Source of the DNA: Thalassotalea atypica | GTDB taxonomy: Bacteria; Pseudomonadota; Gammaproteobacteria; Enterobacterales; Alteromonadaceae | Direction of reading: 5' to 3' | Length of the DNA: 64,000 bases | NCBI RefSeq assembly: GCF_030295975.1 | Contig: NZ_AP027364.1 | Span: 372,001-436,000 of the forward strand | In this document: positions 55,130 through 63,239 of the stretch, one piece after another | Layout of the letters: every line of letters begins with the position of its first letter | How positions within the stretch are numbered: the first letter of the stretch is position 1 | Translations under genes and position numbers: made by a program | The notes under the pieces: model-generated | Database searches by the model: none | Told to the model about the DNA's origin: nothing | What the model saw: the letters and a program-made list of their open reading frames with translations, nothing else

Positions 55130-55528
55130 ATGAATGATCATCAAGTGCAAGCTTATATGCTTGCGAAGCCAGAAACGCAGTTAGATTATCCCTTCGGTGA
55201 AGATGTCAAAGTTTTCAAGGTTAAAAACAAGATGTTTGCGACCTTAGCACTTGGTAAAGGCACTGAGAAAGATACCGACGGTAAGATGGCCGGATTTTAC
55301 TGTATGAACTTAAAGTGTGATCCTGATGAAGCGGCGATGTTACGCGATATTTTTCCTGCGGTGATCCCGGGTTATCACATGAATAAAGCGCAATGGAACA
55401 CGATCATTCTTGATGGCTCAATTCCACATGGTGAGCTTGAACGTATGATTGATAATTCATATATGCTGGTGGTCAGTAAAATGACCAAGAAAGACCAAGC
55501 ATCCATCTTGGTGCATTTATCAATTTAA
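55130..55528 (+). CDS. MmcQ/YjbR family DNA-binding-fold protein, intact copy
   Basis: 132 residues. CyaY-like double-wing fold motifs: LDYPFGEDVKVFKVKNKMFA and the C-terminal HMNKAQWNTIILDGSIP ... SYMLVVSKMTKK. Function is unknown despite the MmcQ name. The last about 150 bp, encoding the conserved C-terminus, recur in four damaged copies over the next 8 kb on the same strand, making this gene the likely anchor of an insertion hotspot. Confidence 0.93.
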   Translation: MNDHQVQAYMLAKPETQLDYPFGEDVKVFKVKNKMFATLALGKGTEKDTDGKMAGFYCMNLKCDPDEAAMLRDIFPAVIPGYHMNKAQWNTIILDGSIPHGELERMIDNSYMLVVSKMTKKDQASILVHLSI

Positions 55529-55550
55529 TATGTTTAAAGGTTGTCTCTTT

Positions 55551-56444
55551 CTAATAATCATTCGAATTTAATAATAGCATTTCATAAAACGCTAACGCGG
55601 CACTTCCTGTTTTGCTTCCTTTAGGCAATGTAATATGCAAAGGTACTTGATATTTTTCATTTTGTTCAATTTTGATTACTTTTAATTTTTCGCTGTTTTG
55701 CTGTTTTAAAATATGTTCAGGTAAGCGACAAAACCCAAGTCCATGCTTAATTGCTCTTACGGCATGATCAAAGTTATCCACGGTGATTCTTTGGTTTGCC
55801 TTTAGCCATCCAACATCTTTAGTGTTGTTATTTAATTGCTCTCCGCCTAAATCCCGTATAACTATTTGACAATGATTAACTAAATCTGACATGCAAATTG
55901 ATTTCAATTTGGCAAGAGGATGATTATTGGATACTACTGGAATCATATTCGTTAGAGAAAATACCTGCGCTGGATAGTTTGTTATTGGCAGCGTTATGAT
56001 TGAAACATCAGCTTTCTTACTTGTGACCATGTTAGTGGTTTTAGATAGAGATGTTTCAAGAACATGTATTGATGTAGTGGAGTTAATTGTTAAAAATTCT
56101 TTCATTGGTTGATAAATTAAGGAAGGCTCGCATAGGTGATCCATTGAAACTATAATTTCAGATTCAACACCTTTGGATAGTTGGTGACTTATTTCTTCTA
56201 TATCTCTAGCTTGCTCAATCATACTTGTTGCTCTTCTGAGTAAAGATTTAGCATGATTCGTTAGCACTGAGCGCCGCCCATTTATTTCAAGCAGTTTTAC
56301 ATCTAATTGTGTTTCCAATTTTTTAATGGAATAAATTAACGTCGTGTGACTTTTGTTGAGCAACAAAGCCGCTGCTTGAATACTTCCTGCTTTATCAACT
56401 TCTTGTAATGTAACCCATTGTTCAAGAGTACTCTTTAATCTCAT
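55551..56444 (-). CDS. LysR-family transcriptional regulator
   Basis: 297 residues. N-terminal winged helix-turn-helix (about 5-65: QEVDKAGSIQAAALLLNKSHTTLIYSIKKLETQLDV) and a substrate-binding domain. It is divergent from the YdhR-like gene, the usual position of a LysR regulator relative to its target. It starts the first accessory module after mmcQ. Confidence 0.9.
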   Translation of the reverse strand: MRLKSTLEQWVTLQEVDKAGSIQAAALLLNKSHTTLIYSIKKLETQLDVKLLEINGRRSVLTNHAKSLLRRATSMIEQARDIEEISHQLSKGVESEIIVSMDHLCEPSLIYQPMKEFLTINSTTSIHVLETSLSKTTNMVTSKKADVSIITLPITNYPAQVFSLTNMIPVVSNNHPLAKLKSICMSDLVNHCQIVIRDLGGEQLNNNTKDVGWLKANQRITVDNFDHAVRAIKHGLGFCRLPEHILKQQNSEKLKVIKIEQNEKYQVPLHITLPKGSKTGSAALAFYEMLLLNSNDY

Positions 56445-56570
56445 ATATAACCTGTCAGTTTTTTGAACATAAAGTGGTAAAATTATGAACTTTATTGTGC
56501 ATTTATTTTAGTTAATAATTTCAACAATAGAAACCAATACACAAAAAGTATCATTACTGGAGACTAAACA

Positions 56571-56885
56571 ATGAAGCTATTACAAGTTGATTTTGATTAT
56601 CAAGGACCAATGGGGGAAGAAATGTCAAATGCCCTTGTTGAACTGGCTGAGTCTATTAACAAAGAAGAAGGCTTAATTTGGAAAATTTGGACAGAAAATG
56701 TGTCTAGAAAGCTTGGTGGTGGAATTTATCTATTTCAAAATGAACAAAGTGCCCAAAATTATCTAAAAATGCATTCAAGTCGGTTAAAGGAAATGGGGGT
56801 AAAGGAAGTTAGAGGTATTATTTTTGATGTGAATTTACCATTAACTGAAATTAACCAGGGTCCTGTATTTCAAGAAGGTAATTAA
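56571..56885 (+). CDS. ydhR: YdhR-family putative monooxygenase
   Basis: 104 residues. ABM/dimeric alpha-beta barrel protein closely following YdhR: LAESINKEEGLIWKIWTEN, GGGIYLFQNEQSAQNYL, FDVNLPLTEINQGPV. Related monooxygenases act on aromatic substrates without cofactor; the YdhR substrate is unknown. It lies divergent from the LysR gene and 3 bp before a small membrane-protein gene. Confidence 0.85.
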   Translation: MKLLQVDFDYQGPMGEEMSNALVELAESINKEEGLIWKIWTENVSRKLGGGIYLFQNEQSAQNYLKMHSSRLKEMGVKEVRGIIFDVNLPLTEINQGPVFQEGN

Positions 56886-56888
56886 CAT

Positions 56889-57266
56889 ATGAGTAATCAA
56901 ACATTTTTCACGGTTCATGGAACGATCTACTTAGTTTTTGCTTTAGCATTATTTTTTCTACCTACACAAATTTGGCCTATGTATGGATTGGAAATCAATG
57001 ATAAGTACGCCAACTTTTTATCACAACATACAAGTATATTTTTAGGTGGATTAGCTGCTGTTAGTTTATTTCTGAGGAAGGTTAGTGATAAAGACGCAGT
57101 TGGTCAGCTTTTAAAAGCTTTGATAGTTACAAACTTGCTTGGCGCAGTAATAACTATCTATGCAGGAATAGTTGGTATTTTTGTTGGATTTGGCTGGAGT
57201 GACCCCGCTTTCTTCTTAATATTAACAATCTTAAGTTCTTTGCAATTAAAGAGGCATAATATCTAA
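56889..57266 (+). CDS. small four-helix membrane protein
   Basis: 125 residues with four predicted transmembrane helices (about 8-25, 45-62, 75-95, 100-118). No specific motif was recognised; it is loosely DUF4345-like in layout. It is co-transcribed with the YdhR-like gene, suggesting a shared role under the LysR regulator. Confidence 0.75.
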   Translation: MSNQTFFTVHGTIYLVFALALFFLPTQIWPMYGLEINDKYANFLSQHTSIFLGGLAAVSLFLRKVSDKDAVGQLLKALIVTNLLGAVITIYAGIVGIFVGFGWSDPAFFLILTILSSLQLKRHNI

Positions 57267-57476
57267 GAAAGCTATATAGGGTGAATCTAAAAATCTCACC
57301 CTAGAAATTTTTATGTGATGCTATAAAAATAAATTAATTCTTGCCAGATTTAACTTTGTTTTAATTTCTATTTGTATTTCAATAAAACTATCTTAAACAA
57401 CATTAAATTATGAAGAGAATAATTTTCAGCCTTATAACCTTTCGAAATAAATATGGGGTTATAGTTGCTAATTATT

Positions 57477-57614
57477 AAGGTGCAGTGGAACACCGTTATT
57501 TTAGATGGCTCAATTCCACAAGGTGAAATAGAGAGGATGATGGGTAATTCGTATATGTTGGTGGTTAGTAAAATGACCAAGAAAGATCAGTAATCAATAT
57601 GGGTGCATTTGTGA
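57477..57614 (+). pseudogene. mmcQ 3'-end fragment, copy 2
   Basis: In one frame it reads KVQWNTVILDGSIPQGEI, then SYMLVVSKMTKKDQ, then a stop at 57591, then SIWVHL and a second stop. It aligns with the last about 46 codons of the intact mmcQ gene, mostly with synonymous changes. No start codon or 5' part is present. Confidence 0.85.
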
Positions 57615-57661
57615 TTACTGTCATTTACTTGTAAGTAAAAGTTCATCTTACTGCATTGTAT

Positions 57662-58216
57662 TTACCACGAAGCAATGAGTGATTTTATCTGCTTAAACTC
57701 TTTTTCCATTTGTGTTGCATCTTCATATATTGAAATTTTTGTCAATCCAGCTAAGAAAATATTAAAGATAATATTGGCTTTCTGTGACGGTTCTTTAAGA
57801 CCTTTAATGGTAAGTTGTGCAGTAAAAAAACCGAGTAACATTTGTTCAAATTCAGTATAAGCAGCTACTAATTGCTTATCTGCTTTTAAGTCGCCATATA
57901 TACTATTTAAGATAAAGCAACCATTGTGACGTACGTCCGCAGAGTCACATGATATGAAAGCCTTAAAAAACTTTTCTAAGCCAGATTTTTCTTCTAATAA
58001 ACTTTGTGTTAACTGTTCAACAAATAGTAAATATTGTTGCAAGCACAAACTGAATATATTTTTTTTGTCACCAAAGCTATGGATTAAACTTCTGCCACTT
58101 AATCCTGTTTTTTTTTGTAAATCTCTTATGGAGGTATTGTCATATCCTGCCTTCCAAAATGCCCGCAAACAGGATTCTAATACTTGATCTTTATCGAAAG
58201 TTATTGTTCTGCCCAT
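57662..58216 (-). CDS. TetR/AcrR-family regulator
   Basis: 184 residues from ATG 58216 (MGRTITFDKDQVLESCLRAF); an upstream start at 58249 is less likely. HTH segment TSIRDLQKKTGLSGRSLIHSFGDKKNIF. The C-terminal ligand domain resembles YxaF/RutR-like C-terminal groups. It is divergent from the redoxin gene with a perfect palindrome between them, the classical autoregulated layout. Confidence 0.9.
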   Translation of the reverse strand: MGRTITFDKDQVLESCLRAFWKAGYDNTSIRDLQKKTGLSGRSLIHSFGDKKNIFSLCLQQYLLFVEQLTQSLLEEKSGLEKFFKAFISCDSADVRHNGCFILNSIYGDLKADKQLVAAYTEFEQMLLGFFTAQLTIKGLKEPSQKANIIFNIFLAGLTKISIYEDATQMEKEFKQIKSLIASW

Positions 58217-58267
58217 GGCTTTTTTTACTAAAACTGAAAGGTTTATCATTAATAGTGATTACTTTAC

Positions 58268-58283
58268 TACAACGTTCGTTGTA
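58268..58283. promoter_or_regulatory. candidate TetR operator
   Basis: Perfect 7-bp arms TACAACG / CGTTGTA around TT, with partly matched flanks (TTAC / ATAA). It lies between the divergent TetR and redoxin genes, about 52 bp from the TetR start and 74 bp from the redoxin start. Confidence 0.65.
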
Positions 58284-58357
58284 ATAAAAATCAGTTTTGG
58301 TTATATTTATATTGAAACAACTGTTGCAGTATAAATATATTACAAGGAATTAAGTTA

Positions 58358-58924
58358 ATGAAATTAAAAGTCGGCGAAATATTGGAAAACATTAAACTTC
58401 CCAATATTGATGGAAATTCGTTTGAATTGGAGTCATTAAAAGGCAAAAAAGTACTAATATCATTTCATCGATTTGCAACTTGTCCTTTCTGCAATTTGCA
58501 TATTCATCAATTAGTTAAGAATTTTGATTCCTTTGCTGATGACTTTGCCATTGTTGCAATTTTTGACTCTCCTCTTAACCATTTACAAACACATGCAGAA
58601 AGCCATCATGCACCTTTTGCTATTTTGGCTGATGATAGCAATGTTTATTATCAAAGATTTAATGTTGAACGTTCAGTTTTAAAAACAATCAAAGGTTTCA
58701 TTAAACGGTTTCCTACTCTTATATATGCGATGTTTATAAAAGGGTATTGGCCATTTCCAATTAAGGGCAATATATTTTCTATGCCTTTGGAGATACTCCT
58801 GGATAGAGACGGGCGTATTGAGCATATCCATAAAGGTAAAGACGAAGGTGATCACATTCCATTGGAGGACATTAAAAATTTTTCTAAATATGGTTCAACA
58901 CCTATAAGAGGTAAAGACAAATAA
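58358..58924 (+). CDS. peroxiredoxin-like redoxin (AhpC/TSA fold)
   Basis: 188 residues. Thioredoxin fold with CPFC in FATCPFCNLHIHQL, so both a peroxidatic-type and a resolving-type Cys are available, and DRDGRIEHIHKGKDEGDHIP late in the fold. It resembles the redoxins that accompany TetR regulators in electrophile or oxidative stress modules. It is divergent from the TetR gene. Confidence 0.82.
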   Translation: MKLKVGEILENIKLPNIDGNSFELESLKGKKVLISFHRFATCPFCNLHIHQLVKNFDSFADDFAIVAIFDSPLNHLQTHAESHHAPFAILADDSNVYYQRFNVERSVLKTIKGFIKRFPTLIYAMFIKGYWPFPIKGNIFSMPLEILLDRDGRIEHIHKGKDEGDHIPLEDIKNFSKYGSTPIRGKDK

Positions 58925-58967
58925 ATTTTTATGGGTATGTATGCTTTAATCTATGGGTATATTGATA

Positions 58968-59112
58968 CACATGAATAAGGCACAATGGAATACTGTGATT
59001 TTGGATGACCCAATCCCTCAAGGTGAAATTGAGCGCATGATAGATAAGTCTTACATGCTGGTGGTCAGTAAAATGACCAAGAAGGATCAGTCATCATTCT
59101 TGGTTCATCTTT
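58968..59112 (+). pseudogene. mmcQ 3'-end fragment, copy 3
   Basis: Reads HMNKAQWNTVILDDPIPQG, EIERMIDKSYMLVVSKM, TKKDQSSFLVHL in an open frame that runs on to a stop at 59150. It has 29 consecutive bases identical to the intact gene around the VVSKMTKK codons, while flanking codons differ mainly at third positions. The 5' two thirds of the gene is missing. Confidence 0.87.
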
Positions 59113-59347
59113 TTAATGAATTACTAATTATTGAACCATCAATACGTTGAGTTAATAATTATGCCACTCATGTGAACTTTTCTTATCTCTTAAACGTAAT
59201 AAATAGGTAATAACCATAGGTGAGATAGTTGCTCTGATACTTTATGTAGTACTTTGAGTTGAACTTGAAAAATAAGCTAGGTTAAAAGTAGTTTGTTGTA
59301 AGTTCAAAATACCATCTTAGAAGAGGAACCTTTGTTTTAACCCATGT

Positions 59348-59983
59348 ATGAGTAGAAGTAAACTTATGCTTATTAAAGCTCTGTTTACACTAATGATTTC
59401 ATTTTTTCAGCAAGTATTTATCCCCTGGTCTATTGGACAACATATGGCAAAGTCTTCAGCGCTAAACATGGTAAAACCGTATCATTATGTGATTGATTTG
59501 ACCGACGATGATGAAGACATATTATGGCGTTCAACTAATGATGGCGTGATGGGTGGGAAGTCAAAGGGACAGATAGTGATCAATAACGGTATCTGTATGT
59601 TTACGGGTAATCTTTCTATAGAAAACAATGGGGGCTTTAGTTCTATTTACCGAAATCTAGAACCGCTTCCTGTAGGCCTTGATACCATAGAAATATGTGT
59701 AGCTGGAGATGGTTTAGTGTATCAACTTAGAGTAATTGTTTACATTAATGGTTACCGATTAGCCTACAAGTATGATTTTCAGACAACCGAAGGCGAAAAA
59801 AGTCGCGTATGTATTAAGTTGAATGATTTCAAGGCAACCTTTCGAGGTAGAAGTATTACTGACGCGCCGCAATTAACTTCCGAGCAAATTCGACAAATTG
59901 GTTTCTTAGTGACCAATAAAGCCCCTGTTGCTTTCTCATTATCGCTATTTCAAGTAGACATTTACCGCCAATATGAGGTGTAA
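59348..59983 (+). CDS. CIA30-family protein (complex I intermediate-associated 30-like)
   Basis: 211 residues. The family signature WRSTNDGVMGGKSKGQI is followed by the jelly-roll body (FTGNLSIENNGGFSSIYR) and a C-terminal strand AFSLSLFQVDIY. A hydrophobic N-terminal stretch (about 8-25) could be a leader. Bacterial members are uncharacterised carbohydrate-binding-like proteins, often near photolyase or Trp-rich TIGR02450 genes. The next gene starts 4 bp downstream. Confidence 0.85.
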   Translation: MSRSKLMLIKALFTLMISFFQQVFIPWSIGQHMAKSSALNMVKPYHYVIDLTDDDEDILWRSTNDGVMGGKSKGQIVINNGICMFTGNLSIENNGGFSSIYRNLEPLPVGLDTIEICVAGDGLVYQLRVIVYINGYRLAYKYDFQTTEGEKSRVCIKLNDFKATFRGRSITDAPQLTSEQIRQIGFLVTNKAPVAFSLSLFQVDIYRQYEV

Positions 59984-59987
59984 GTCG

Positions 59988-60203
59988 ATGAATAAAATAA
60001 GCCCTAAAGCTTTACTTCACAGTAAGTGGAGTAAAGTTCATATCACCCATAAAGAAAAACACTTTACAGTCACTAAAGTGAAATTTAACGAAAAACAGCA
60101 AGTGATACTGTGTGTAATTGAAGCCGTGATCAGCAAAAAAGAATACACGATTAACTGGCGCGACCTAAAGGTCAGTGAAGAATGGGTGATAGGATGGAAA
60201 TAA
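59988..60203 (+). CDS. TIGR02450 Trp-rich small protein
   Basis: 71 residues from ATG 59988 with GAGGTG upstream. NKISPKALLHSKWSKV, KEKHFTVTKVKF and the closing INWRDLKVSEEWVIGWK match the conserved Trp-rich family. Function is unknown; it is often found beside photo-oxidative-stress genes. It is co-transcribed with the CIA30 gene. Confidence 0.87.
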   Translation: MNKISPKALLHSKWSKVHITHKEKHFTVTKVKFNEKQQVILCVIEAVISKKEYTINWRDLKVSEEWVIGWK

Positions 60204-60270
60204 TCCGCCTTTTTGTTCAGCTTTCATGCATTATCAGTATTTGTAATATTACTTGGTTGTTGTATTAATA

Positions 60271-60342
60271 CTTACCAACTTACCAACTTACCAACTTACC
60301 AACTTACCAACTTACCAACTTACCAACTTACCAACTTACCAA
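60271..60342. repeat. octanucleotide tandem array, nine units of CTTACCAA
   Basis: Nine perfect head-to-tail copies of an 8-bp unit (72 bp) ending in a partial CTTA. The final unit contains the stop codon of the SDR gene on the minus strand. Changes in copy number would therefore alter only the 3' untranslated region, not the protein. Confidence 0.97.
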
Positions 60343-61070
60343 CTTATCTTCTTCCCTTGCCAGTCGAGGTAACTTAATTGGCCATCAATATCTTTATCAT
60401 TAACAATATCGAGCAACTGTTGAGCGACAAATTTAGTGGTGAATATCTTGTTATCTGGAACGTTTTTTTGAAATGGTTTTGATAGTTTTGTGTCTGTTGT
60501 ACCTGGGTGAAAGGCTATAAGTTTTATGTTCTTAGCCCTTCGTGCAAGTTCAATTGCTGCGGTTTTCAACATCATGTTCAAGGCTGCTTTAGAAGCACGA
60601 TAACTGTACCAACCACCTAAATTATTATCACTAATGCTACCTATACGAGCGCTAAATACGGTTATCTTGCAAGGGTGTTTATGTGTTAATTTTGGCGTTA
60701 GATATTTTATCCATAACAAGGGGGTTAATGCATTAATTTTAAGTACAGTTTCAAATGATGCTGCGTTGATGCTTTCTAAGCATTTTTCAGGCTGTAAAAC
60801 ATCATTATGTAAAATACCATGGCAAATGAATACACGAGTAATCGGGCTTTTATTGTTGTTTTCAATGGCGCTAACCGCATGTTCGATTGTTTTTTCGGAA
60901 TAATCACTTACTTGAATTTTCTGGGCGCCAAGGTAGTTACCGCTGCAATATGTCTCTAGTTTTCGGCTAATTAAAATAAGGTGTTGTTCACCGTGTATCA
61001 GAAGCTCCGTACTGATTGCTTGGGCAATGGCACTATTTGCGCCGATGATTAGCGTTCGTTGATTTTTCAA
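60336..61070 (-). CDS. short-chain dehydrogenase/reductase
   Basis: 244 residues from a TTG at 61070 with AGGAG six bases upstream; an ATG at 61127 would overlap the preceding gene by 95 bp and add residues not needed by the fold. Cofactor segment LIIGANSAIAQAI (GxxxxIA in place of the usual GxxxGIG) and catalytic YSYRASKAALN (YxxxK) with the Ser in FSARIGS. The substrate is unknown. It overlaps the DCC-family gene by 38 bp. Confidence 0.83.
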   Translation of the reverse strand: MKNQRTLIIGANSAIAQAISTELLIHGEQHLILISRKLETYCSGNYLGAQKIQVSDYSEKTIEHAVSAIENNNKSPITRVFICHGILHNDVLQPEKCLESINAASFETVLKINALTPLLWIKYLTPKLTHKHPCKITVFSARIGSISDNNLGGWYSYRASKAALNMMLKTAAIELARRAKNIKLIAFHPGTTDTKLSKPFQKNVPDNKIFTTKFVAQQLLDIVNDKDIDGQLSYLDWQGKKISW

Positions 61071-61458
61071 AACATGCTCCTGATTGACATACAGCTGATT
61101 CCAACTTAAATACTTTCGCAATAGCACTAGAGATAGGGTGCCTGTACTTTGCTATCAGTAAATAAACCCAATGACTCAGCGTCTTAAGTATTGGCCAGTT
61201 TAATGGGGCTACCCAAAAACCTTTACCGACAAGAGTCCATGCTCGATGAGTTACTTCAAGACCGAGTAAAAAATGTCCTTGATAAGTACCATGCAAAATT
61301 TGCATTGCGCGATGAATATTAATGCTTGGATATAACTTGCTGAAATTCTTGCTGTGAAGGTTAACAAGCTTGATATTATTATTTTCATCATGCTTTTTTA
61401 GATGACTCATTTCAGCGCTACAAAGCGGACAATTACCGTCGTAAAATATAATCAGCAT
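61033..61458 (-). CDS. DCC-family (DUF393) thiol-disulfide oxidoreductase-like protein
   Basis: 141 residues. Starts LIIFYDGNCPLCSAEMSHL, the DxxCxxC motif of the DCC family, with ILHGTYQGHFLLGLEVTHRAW in the middle. It is a thioredoxin-like redox protein of unknown partner. It sits 24 bp after the DUF3429 gene in a minus-strand run with the SDR gene. Confidence 0.87.
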   Translation of the reverse strand: MLIIFYDGNCPLCSAEMSHLKKHDENNNIKLVNLHSKNFSKLYPSINIHRAMQILHGTYQGHFLLGLEVTHRAWTLVGKGFWVAPLNWPILKTLSHWVYLLIAKYRHPISSAIAKVFKLESAVCQSGACFEKSTNANHRRK

Positions 61459-61482
61459 AATGTTCCCAAAGTTAATACTTAA

Positions 61483-61938
61483 TTAAAACCAAAAGATAAT
61501 CGCTATCATATGTAATAAAACTACTACACTGGTCAGCCAAAACCGCATGCTCATATATTGCCTGTTTAAGGCTTTATCATGCCTAATAGAACGCTCAAAT
61601 AAGAAGATAAAGAGGTAGCTTGTTGCAAGTATCCATAATGCTAACCAAAAATCAGTGAGCAGTGTAAAACAGGCTATTAAACTGAAAAGGTTACTGATTA
61701 TTTGCGTTTTGCCTCGCTTTGTTTTTTGGTCAATTCGCCAAAGTGAACCGGCAATAAAACTTAATATAATGGCGCTGTAATAAATAAATGACTGTTTGGC
61801 AACAAGCTGTAGCTCAGGGATAAAAAGGCTTATTACCATGCAAGTAAAAAAGGGGAGCAAACCCATATAACCGAGAATTTGCCACAGTTTTACAACATTA
61901 TTGGTTTTTTTTTCAGGCAACATAAGCATCGCTGCCAT
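61483..61938 (-). CDS. DUF3429 membrane protein
   Basis: 151 residues with about four transmembrane helices. LGYMGLLPFFTCM and YYSAIILSFIAGSLWRID match the DUF3429 pattern (GxxPF, ILSFxGGxxWG). Function is unknown. Its start overlaps the flavin-reductase remnant upstream by 26 bp. Confidence 0.82.
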   Translation of the reverse strand: MAAMLMLPEKKTNNVVKLWQILGYMGLLPFFTCMVISLFIPELQLVAKQSFIYYSAIILSFIAGSLWRIDQKTKRGKTQIISNLFSLIACFTLLTDFWLALWILATSYLFIFLFERSIRHDKALNRQYMSMRFWLTSVVVLLHMIAIIFWF

Positions 61939-62164
61939 CTAGATTGAGCTTTTGTTGAAGCTGGTTAGGTTTAGCGTAACTAAAGATAGCGAAGATCGTT
62001 TGATTCTGCTGGCTATTAGTACCTATTAAGTTTGCACTTTTTACACCGAGTAAACTATTAATCAAATGTGCTCTATAGTCAGGTTCCATGCAACGAGTGT
62101 CGTCTTTTGTAATGTGTCTCAAATCAATTGCCTTAAAGTTATCGGATGTTAAAAGCTTAACCAT
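61913..62164 (-). pseudogene. truncated flavin reductase
   Basis: 83 residues. Residues 12-60 (RHITKDDTRCMEPDYRAHLI, NSLLGVKSANLIGTNS, TIFAIFS) match the N-terminus of the flavin-reductase-like FMN-binding family, which normally continues for another 140-150 residues with SSVxHxGxNPPLLGF. Here the sequence leaves the family after AIFS and ends in an unrelated short tail that runs into the DUF3429 start. It may still be translated but should not fold as an FMN-binding domain. Confidence 0.7.
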
Positions 62165-62370
62165 ATTGATGTTACGAACATAAAGTCACTAAAGATCAAT
62201 GTGAGTGTTTTTGTTTCTTAACAACGGTGCACAGCTACATGTAAATCCTAAAAACGCTATATGGCGGAATTGTTTGCTATGAAAAGAATAATGGGTATTT
62301 TCTTTATGTGAAGGAGAGCTTAAGTGTCTTATTAAAAAGTGTTGACTTAGGTTTTAGTTTATTAAGTGAA

Positions 62371-62430
62371 ATATCAGTAATGACCAAGAAAGAAAAAACA
62401 CCTATCTTGGTACATCTAGAAACAAAGTAA
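62371..62430 (+). pseudogene. mmcQ 3'-end fragment, copy 4
   Basis: Shortest copy: TCAGTAATGACCAAGAAAG and then CTATCTTGGTACATCT, encoding MTKKEKTPILVHLETK and a stop. Only the last about 17 codons of mmcQ are represented. Confidence 0.75.
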
Positions 62431-62435
62431 ACAAG

Positions 62436-62957
62436 TTAAGATTTTAAATAGCTTCTTAACTTATTGAGTGCAGCCACAGAAAAACCCTCATCATAAAAAT
62501 ACAAGATCAGACCGTTTTCATCTAACAGTACAACTCTGGCATTGTTGGGGTTTTCATTCCCGGTAAATTCTTGAACCCTCTCCCCATCTTCATAAACGGT
62601 AATAACTCCTTTCCATAGCGCTTTAGGTATACCTTTGCGCATCCCGTTATCAATCATAGTACTGAACATTTTTGGAAATAGTCCTTGAATAGTAGGAATT
62701 TCAAAAACATCAATCTTAGTTTCCGTCATGTCTAATGCAATTAACCACCTGTCTATATCAAATTGTGAATTCTGCTTATACCCAACTAGCAATAGCGTAA
62801 AGTCACTTTTAAAAAATGCAGGAATATTAATTGTTTCTTGTTCAAGATTTTGCCCACTTACTGAGATAAAGGTTTTTCCAGTAACATTTTGATTTGCATA
62901 ATTTGTCGCACACCCAGTGACGAGTAAAAGTGAAATAACTAATAATAAAATTCGCAT
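62436..62957 (-). CDS. thioredoxin-fold (Atp10/DUF4174-like) lipoprotein
   Basis: 173 residues from ATG 62957; a start at 62966 adds three. The lipobox is LLVTGC (Cys near 16). The body shows a strand-helix pattern LLLVGYKQNSQFDIDRWLIAL, then DVFEIPTIQGLFPKMFSTMI, DNGMRKGIPKALW and ARVVLLDENGLILYFYDEGF, resembling the thioredoxin-like Atp10 family without catalytic Cys. Role unknown; it sits between mmcQ fragments 4 and 5. Confidence 0.7.
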   Translation of the reverse strand: MRILLLVISLLLVTGCATNYANQNVTGKTFISVSGQNLEQETINIPAFFKSDFTLLLVGYKQNSQFDIDRWLIALDMTETKIDVFEIPTIQGLFPKMFSTMIDNGMRKGIPKALWKGVITVYEDGERVQEFTGNENPNNARVVLLDENGLILYFYDEGFSVAALNKLRSYLKS

Positions 62958-63122
62958 TGATAACATCTCTGTATTTGATAGTTACCCTTAATACGAACTA
63001 CAAAATATTTAGATCATCGCTATGATTATTATTTAACTTTCCGAATGGTTTACGTTGATGGCTCATGTAAAAATCTAACAAATATGGTTTATTGTGGTAA
63101 CCAAAAAGGTCTTTATGAATTA

Positions 63123-63221
63123 ATCCCGCAAGGCTAAATTGAGCAGGTGATAGCTAATTGGCGTAAGCTAGTAGCCAGAAAAATGACCAAGAAAGATCAG
63201 TCATCAATCTTGGTACATTTA
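63123..63221 (+). pseudogene. mmcQ-like 3'-end fragment, copy 5
   Basis: Reads IPQG, stop, IEQVIANWRKLVARKMTK, then KDQSSILVHLY. The last about 40 bases match the intact gene and copy 3 closely; the part before is more diverged. An in-frame stop and absence of the 5' part make it non-functional. Confidence 0.78.
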
Positions 63222-63239
63222 TATGGAAGGGATGTGACT

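Follow-up and report, generated by a model that had tools for sequence, protein, structure and literature searches.

Related insertion systems and the mmcQ locus

Large serine recombinases (LSRs) insert the staphylococcal cassette chromosome (SCC, including SCCmec) and the enterococcal cassette chromosome (ECC) at the 3' region of rlmH and leave the attachment sites attL and attR; composite elements and extra attachment (att) sites are known, and the cargo is highly variable (PMC6222049). A survey of LSRs reports in its main text that distantly related enzymes converge on one site in one conserved gene, with a prolyl isomerase and a Mg-chelatase/ATP-dependent protease among the examples (PMC10083194). 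Here we analyze a 64,000-nt stretch of the Thalassotalea atypica genome (contig NZ_AP027364.1, positions 372,001 to 436,000; this whole stretch is the window, and positions are given within it), in which the MmcQ/YjbR gene (mmcQ) is followed by four partial copies of its 3' end, hereafter tails, that are separated by unrelated cargo. We conclude that codons 83-87 of mmcQ are very probably a chromosomal attachment site (attB) for LSR-carrying elements, and that repeated insertion, loss of the LSR and exchange of modules build such arrays. A first-pass annotation of the window had proposed an insertion hotspot at which incoming DNA leaves an mmcQ tail, and this is borne out by the recurrence of tails, by reshuffled modules and by LSR elements within mmcQ. 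It had left the choice between site-specific and homologous recombination undecided; site-specific LSR integration is the most likely mechanism, with homologous exchange through the tails on top of it.

The nearest working analogue is SCC, which shares LSR insertion in a conserved gene and composite arrays, and an att site stands at each junction of the composite mmcQ arrays. The target here, however, is mmcQ/yjbR and not rlmH, and it is split 147 nt before its stop codon. The scar of SCC is a repeat of about 50 bp, whereas in mmcQ the entire displaced end of the gene (~147 nt) forms the scar, and the mmcQ arrays hold LSR-free cassettes of 0.5-8 kb with host-type genes in marine Gammaproteobacteria. 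The ccr recombinases of SCC share their domain class with the LSRs of the mmcQ elements. By analogy, the mmcQ arrays would work like SCC at rlmH, and we do not file them as SCC. Within its main text, the LSR survey does not name YjbR or MmcQ and describes neither LSR-free module arrays bounded by displaced gene ends nor element-borne copies of the target gene (PMC10083194).

Like integron arrays, mmcQ arrays consist of interchangeable cassettes in one orientation, each with the same terminal unit and with an order that is shuffled between species. Unlike them, they have no adjacent integron integrase (IntI) and no attC fold or R'/R'' boxes; their unit joins a half-site to the 3' terminus of a host gene, and modules of several genes are frequent among them. 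Islands in the 3' ends of genes or tRNAs, such as e14 in icd and the tycheposons, supply a new end to their target and carry the old end at the far junction. These islands use tyrosine recombinases, whereas the enzymes adjacent to mmcQ are LSRs. Our literature search found no paper linking yjbR or MmcQ to an insertion hotspot or integration site, and the system is best called a variant of LSR-mediated integration whose unusual feature is the integron-like array of modules.

LSR elements within mmcQ

A search with a model of edge motif plus tail, widened to the order, led to genome G315, which belongs to another family, and a subsequent search of the window's own family for relatives of the G315 LSR gave two further matches beside mmcQ, in G088 and G259. 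All three proteins contain Resolvase and Recombinase domains and are thus large serine recombinases. Their pairwise identity is 27-31%, so different enzymes use one mmcQ site. In G315, a 501-aa LSR lies within ~60 bp of a right-end half-site and tail with the edge sequence AATAGTGTTTGTGTTTATATGATTAAA; the mmcQ 5' fragment ends ...CATATGAATAAA, after which the element carries a complete mmcQ. G259 has the same mmcQ end, ...CATATGAATAAA, with a 681-aa LSR 54 bp further on. The G088 gene breaks off at codon ~86; its LSR, of 538 aa, starts 58 bp beyond this point, and the remainder of mmcQ is found 7 kb on. The element-borne complete genes of G315 (L193 1083-724) and G259 (L148 2090-2450) are of a divergent type (YHMDKKHW...).

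Joining the mmcQ flanks across the insert restores an in-frame YjbR in all three genomes, with a core base assignable to either side in G259 and G088. The joined element ends are dyad-symmetric in G315 (GTGTTTATATG ... CATATAAACAC, P 0.001 vs shuffles) and in G259 (GGGTATAATA ... TATAATACCC, P 0.0025 vs shuffles), as expected of the element's attachment site, attP. The crossover core in mmcQ is predicted to be ATGAATAAA. The unit found in the arrays corresponds exactly to such a displaced mmcQ 3' end together with an element half-site, and the best reading of the tails is that they are displaced 3' ends of mmcQ at attR. The first-pass annotation saw no recombinase, which is correct for the window and does not hold for the system as a whole, given the LSR elements that split mmcQ in these three other genomes.

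The G088 element (L191 11260-18637, 7 kb) disrupts mmcQ, and no further mmcQ match is listed for that genome; mmcQ therefore seems dispensable there. The G315 element also has a 193-aa tyrosine-recombinase-like open reading frame (ORF; L169 2735-3316).

Tails, half-sites and modules in the window and the family

The array in the window comprises the following features.

55130..55528, + strand: mmcQ/yjbR, intact target gene (Pfam, genome blastn)
55376..55392, + strand: predicted attB region, codons 83-87 (CAC ATG AAT AAA GCG), by homology to the junctions in G088, G259 and G315
55529..57452: module 1, LysR regulator (-), YdhR mono-oxygenase (+), membrane protein (+)
57453..57479, + strand: putative element half-site bordering tail 2 on its 5' side (ATGGGGTTATAGTTGCTAATTATTAAG), resembling the half-site beside the G088 LSR element
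57471..57610, + strand: mmcQ tail 2 (t2), displaced 3' end, pseudogene
57611..58952: module 2, TetR regulator (-), AhpC/redoxin (+) (Pfam)
58953..58979, + strand: putative element half-site bordering tail 3 on its 5' side (ATGGGTATATTGATACACATGAATAAG), resembling (above 95% of shuffled edges only) the half-site of the G259 LSR element
58968..59117, + strand: mmcQ tail 3 (t3)
59118..62373: module 3, CIA30, small ORF (TIGR02450 according to the first-pass annotation), SDR, DCC, DUF3429, short ORF
62374..62418, + strand: mmcQ tail 4 (t4), final ~45 nt left, no recognizable half-site
62419..63109: module 4, lipoprotein-like ORF at 62436-62966 (-), no Pfam match
63110..63222, + strand: mmcQ tail 5 (t5), most decayed, no recognizable half-site

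The resident gene (Pfam YjbR, 5.6e-31) is the sole full-length copy in the genome. A blastn search with mmcQ against the whole genome matched five places, all inside the block (E 1e-225 to 2.5e-4), and a repeat search returned a single 40-nt family, with five members in all, each on the + strand (55480, 57572, 59072, 62379 and 63182), of which the better preserved are also grouped in longer 113- and 157-nt families. Both searches uphold the earlier count of five same-strand copies, four of them 3' partials; the first tail is present as annotated, with its start corrected from 57477 to 57471. Identity to the resident gene is 79% for t2 (gene nt 250-389), 80% for t3 (nt 247-395), 84% for t4, where it is restricted to nt 344-390, and 73% for t5 (nt 279-391). 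The differences were said to fall mainly at third codon positions, which holds for t2 (18/29), t3 (22/30) and t5 (17/31). In-frame stops are present in t2 and t5, indicating that the tails are no longer coding. The most informative feature is the 5' boundary common to the tails, at gene nt ~247-250 (codon 83-84), which the first-pass annotation does not mention.

Pfam matches to LysR, YdhR, TetR, AhpC/redoxin, CIA30, DCC and DUF3429 agree with the cargo as first described. No similar module to module 1 was found among the fetched loci, and the alignment of inter-tail modules gave no relative of the first two window modules in the locus set. The CIA30/TIGR02450/SDR/DCC/DUF3429 set (59348-62164) stands behind mmcQ in many relatives without tails, which suggests that some cargo was inherited or that tails have decayed. 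Ten head-to-tail copies of an 8-bp unit (ACTTACCA) occupy 60270-60349, between the TIGR02450-type ORF and the SDR gene.

A DNA search for mmcQ in 197 family genomes revealed a second, third or fourth partial match downstream of mmcQ in many of them. When the loci were fetched and searched with a model of the mmcQ 3' end, 72 extra tails were found downstream of mmcQ in 42 loci, mostly of Colwelliaceae, flanking different cargo across the family, as the first-pass annotation would predict. Tails lie on the strand of the resident mmcQ in every locus that holds both, and 49/72 start within the 13 model columns 17-29, close to codon 83-86. With a model built on the 5' part of mmcQ, extra 5' copies were detected in G315 only. 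The six other searched genomes of the window's genus each have a single mmcQ match; they provide the empty sites that had been anticipated, and the block is accordingly no inherited trait of the genus. Conservation of the whole block in all relatives, which would have counted against a hotspot, was not seen. The tails had also been ascribed to related organisms, which is right in part: of 33 tails, 13 are nearest to the resident mmcQ of their own genome and the rest are not.

Two further tail-bearing loci deserve mention. A half-site plus tail unit occurs at L144 (G175 contig C7) 6349-6185, on a 64-kb contig that has no mmcQ and that encodes a 222-aa tyrosine recombinase ORF near the end far from this unit. 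Tails in two Colwellia (L126 1951-2121 and L139 5245-5077) have a 14-nt insertion at the identical position (GTGCTTYTTGTTYAWG...), hinting at common descent.

The sequence directly upstream of the tails is conserved and has no counterpart at that point of the gene itself, and most tails bear one of a few conserved sequences of ~27 bp at this 5' edge. The edge motif AGTAGYGCTAAYGWTTAYATGATTAAA is present in 29/44 tails, with other flavours in the rest. Close matches to it (<=2 mismatches) were found in 18 genomes, all at mmcQ tails except G144:C60. A scan of 84,980 genomes gave 24 exact matches, 13 of them in Colwellia/Thalassotalea records, where 11 sit at an mmcQ tail. No conservation was found downstream of the tail stop codon. 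Half-site likeness was scored by alignment against shuffled edges. Likeness above 99.9% of shuffled edges links the LSR-free L051 tail with G259; the tails of L150, L121 and the window's t2 with G088; and those of L039 and L046 with G315. Two other origins of the edge motif were tried and rejected: an E. coli-type dif (XerCD) site, since no dif-like match was obtained in 8-9 family genomes, and the upstream part of mmcQ, whose likeness was mostly no better than that of shuffles.

Alignment of every inter-tail module with every locus demonstrated that modules are homologous from tail end to tail start across species, in varying order and constant orientation. L126 and L150 both have the complete hydrolase module (87%), and a four-gene module (c8-c10-c16-c11) is shared by L041 and L148 (88%). 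An EAL-type module occurs in L041, L150, L043 and L048, a two-gene module (c88-c89) in L041, L150, L054 and L133, a ParDE module in L133, L134 and L118, and a GNAT module in L119 and L134. One module can adjoin the resident mmcQ in one species and a tail in another; in either case homology begins directly after the stop codon. Cargo between copies measures 0.5-8 kb, and the ParE/ParD and GNAT cassettes measure 0.6-1.1 kb. An ORF ending in the motif (L126, L150), considered as an IS110 transposase, was identified by Pfam as a dienelactone hydrolase.

Build-up of the arrays and alternative explanations

We propose that an LSR-carrying integrative element enters mmcQ at codons 83-87 and splits the gene; the 5' part would remain on the left, and the last ~147 nt would be moved to the far end of the element, giving an attR composed of P half-site, core and mmcQ 3' end. 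Function may be kept through the element's own mmcQ, of which G315 and G259 have a complete copy. In most Colwelliaceae arrays the element apparently brought a replacement of the mmcQ 3' end, because no leftover 5' fragment is seen. The gene was presumably restored by one of two routes: recombination between a copy of mmcQ on the element and the 5' fragment, or delivery of the gene end by the cassettes themselves, as their right arm. Further rounds at the intact mmcQ or at a tail, together with LSR loss, and exchange of modules between species, mediated by trans-acting LSRs or by homologous recombination at the ~150-bp tails, would yield arrays of cargo modules that each close with a half-site and a tail. 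In LSR-free arrays the LSR may have been lost later or never carried. The window array is best read as a decayed, LSR-free composite, whose four modules, we infer, arrived by LSR insertion.

Several results weigh against this reading. No LSR or LSR remnant was found in the searched LSR-free arrays, the window has no LSR, and its genome has no PF07508 match. The association of LSRs with tails is weak (8/24 genomes with tails vs 46/273, P 0.055). In the LSR-free arrays no leftover mmcQ 5' fragment was found and the resident mmcQ is complete, which a simple attP x attB event would not produce. No LSR in Colwelliaceae belongs to the commonest half-site (AGTAGYGC...), and the G315 half-site is related to it and not identical. 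In the window, the half-site of t3 matches that of G259 weakly, above 95% of shuffled edges only, and t4 and t5 have none that is recognizable. The dyad symmetry of the joined element ends is not significant in G088 (P 0.14). Finally, within an array the body of a tail follows its host genome more closely than it follows the cargo. In a linkage analysis of nine or ten module groups, only the final ~20 nt of the tail left of the cargo travel with the cargo (excess identity 0.087 +/- 0.025), and neighboring tails within an array are alike along the body (0.09 falling to 0.03-0.04). This pattern fits homologous exchange or gene conversion added to site-specific insertion. A correlation of 5' with 3' distances, examined for chimeric resident mmcQ genes, was uninformative.

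Other enzymes and carriers were also sought. PF00589 matches occur elsewhere in 22 genomes, with none between tails in the first loci, and a tyrosine integrase at the tails was rejected; the families listed for the cargo from Pfam and PHROG include none. The PHROGs scans gave no phage module among the families listed. No LSR relatives were detected in viral contigs, and those in phages are remote (<30% identity among the matches listed). For the half-site AGTAGYGCTAAY, the matching enzyme is not among the LSRs found in mmcQ.

Homologous recombination may well act in addition to the LSRs. As the sole process, with the ~150-bp tail as anchor through which RecA joins circles of cargo and tail, or linear DNA, with mmcQ or a tail, it would agree with the arrays that have no recombinase, with tail bodies that track the host genome while the cargo-side edge alone tracks the cargo, and with the 3' part being the best conserved stretch of mmcQ. 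It is nevertheless an unlikely account, since it explains neither the fixed boundary at codon 83-86 with its adjacent conserved half-sites nor the LSR elements that split mmcQ there and have in-frame empty sites. Tandem partial duplicates are common in genomes generally, and the 13/33 tails most like their own resident mmcQ are what would be expected if tails had arisen by partial duplication of the resident gene and then degenerated where they stood. The copies, however, are separated by 0.5-8 kb of unrelated cargo, modules are common to different genera in differing order, the duplicated part and edge sequence are the same throughout the family, and the window's genus relatives have no tails. 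Shared modules and split genes refute duplication as a full account, and we regard it as very improbable.

A chromosomal integron, in which half-site and tail form an attC-like site and IntI moves the cassettes, would account for interchangeable one-orientation cassettes of 0.6-1.1 kb, including ParE/ParD and GNAT, and IntI is indeed above the curated cut-off in 144/197 family genomes, that of the window included (e.g., G000:C1:1801119-1802063). Yet IntI never adjoins an array and is equally common in tail-free genomes, and in G057 and G049, which have tails, no IntI exceeds the cut-off. The unit has no conserved fold (-1.5 kcal/mol), no paired R boxes are seen at its ends when judged by eye, and the LSR elements account for the boundary. 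The integron explanation therefore has very little probability in our judgment.

Insertion by LSRs at mmcQ thus remains the preferred reading. A more specific version of it is possible, if rather doubtful: LSR-free cassettes, each consisting of cargo with a half-site and an mmcQ 3' end, would be moved in trans by several LSR families, and mmcQ would be regenerated at each insertion. If true, the target gene would survive unlimited insertions and anchor an integron-like array, in a serine-recombinase counterpart of the integron in Gammaproteobacteria, and the cassette system would borrow its recombination unit from a host gene. The analysis provides a family-wide integration hotspot and its likely enzymes, with pairs of LSR and attachment site that are open to direct testing. 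The mmcQ tails are usable as a marker for mobile cassettes in polar and marine bacteria, whose contents include toxin-antitoxin, acetyltransferase, hydrolase and signalling modules.

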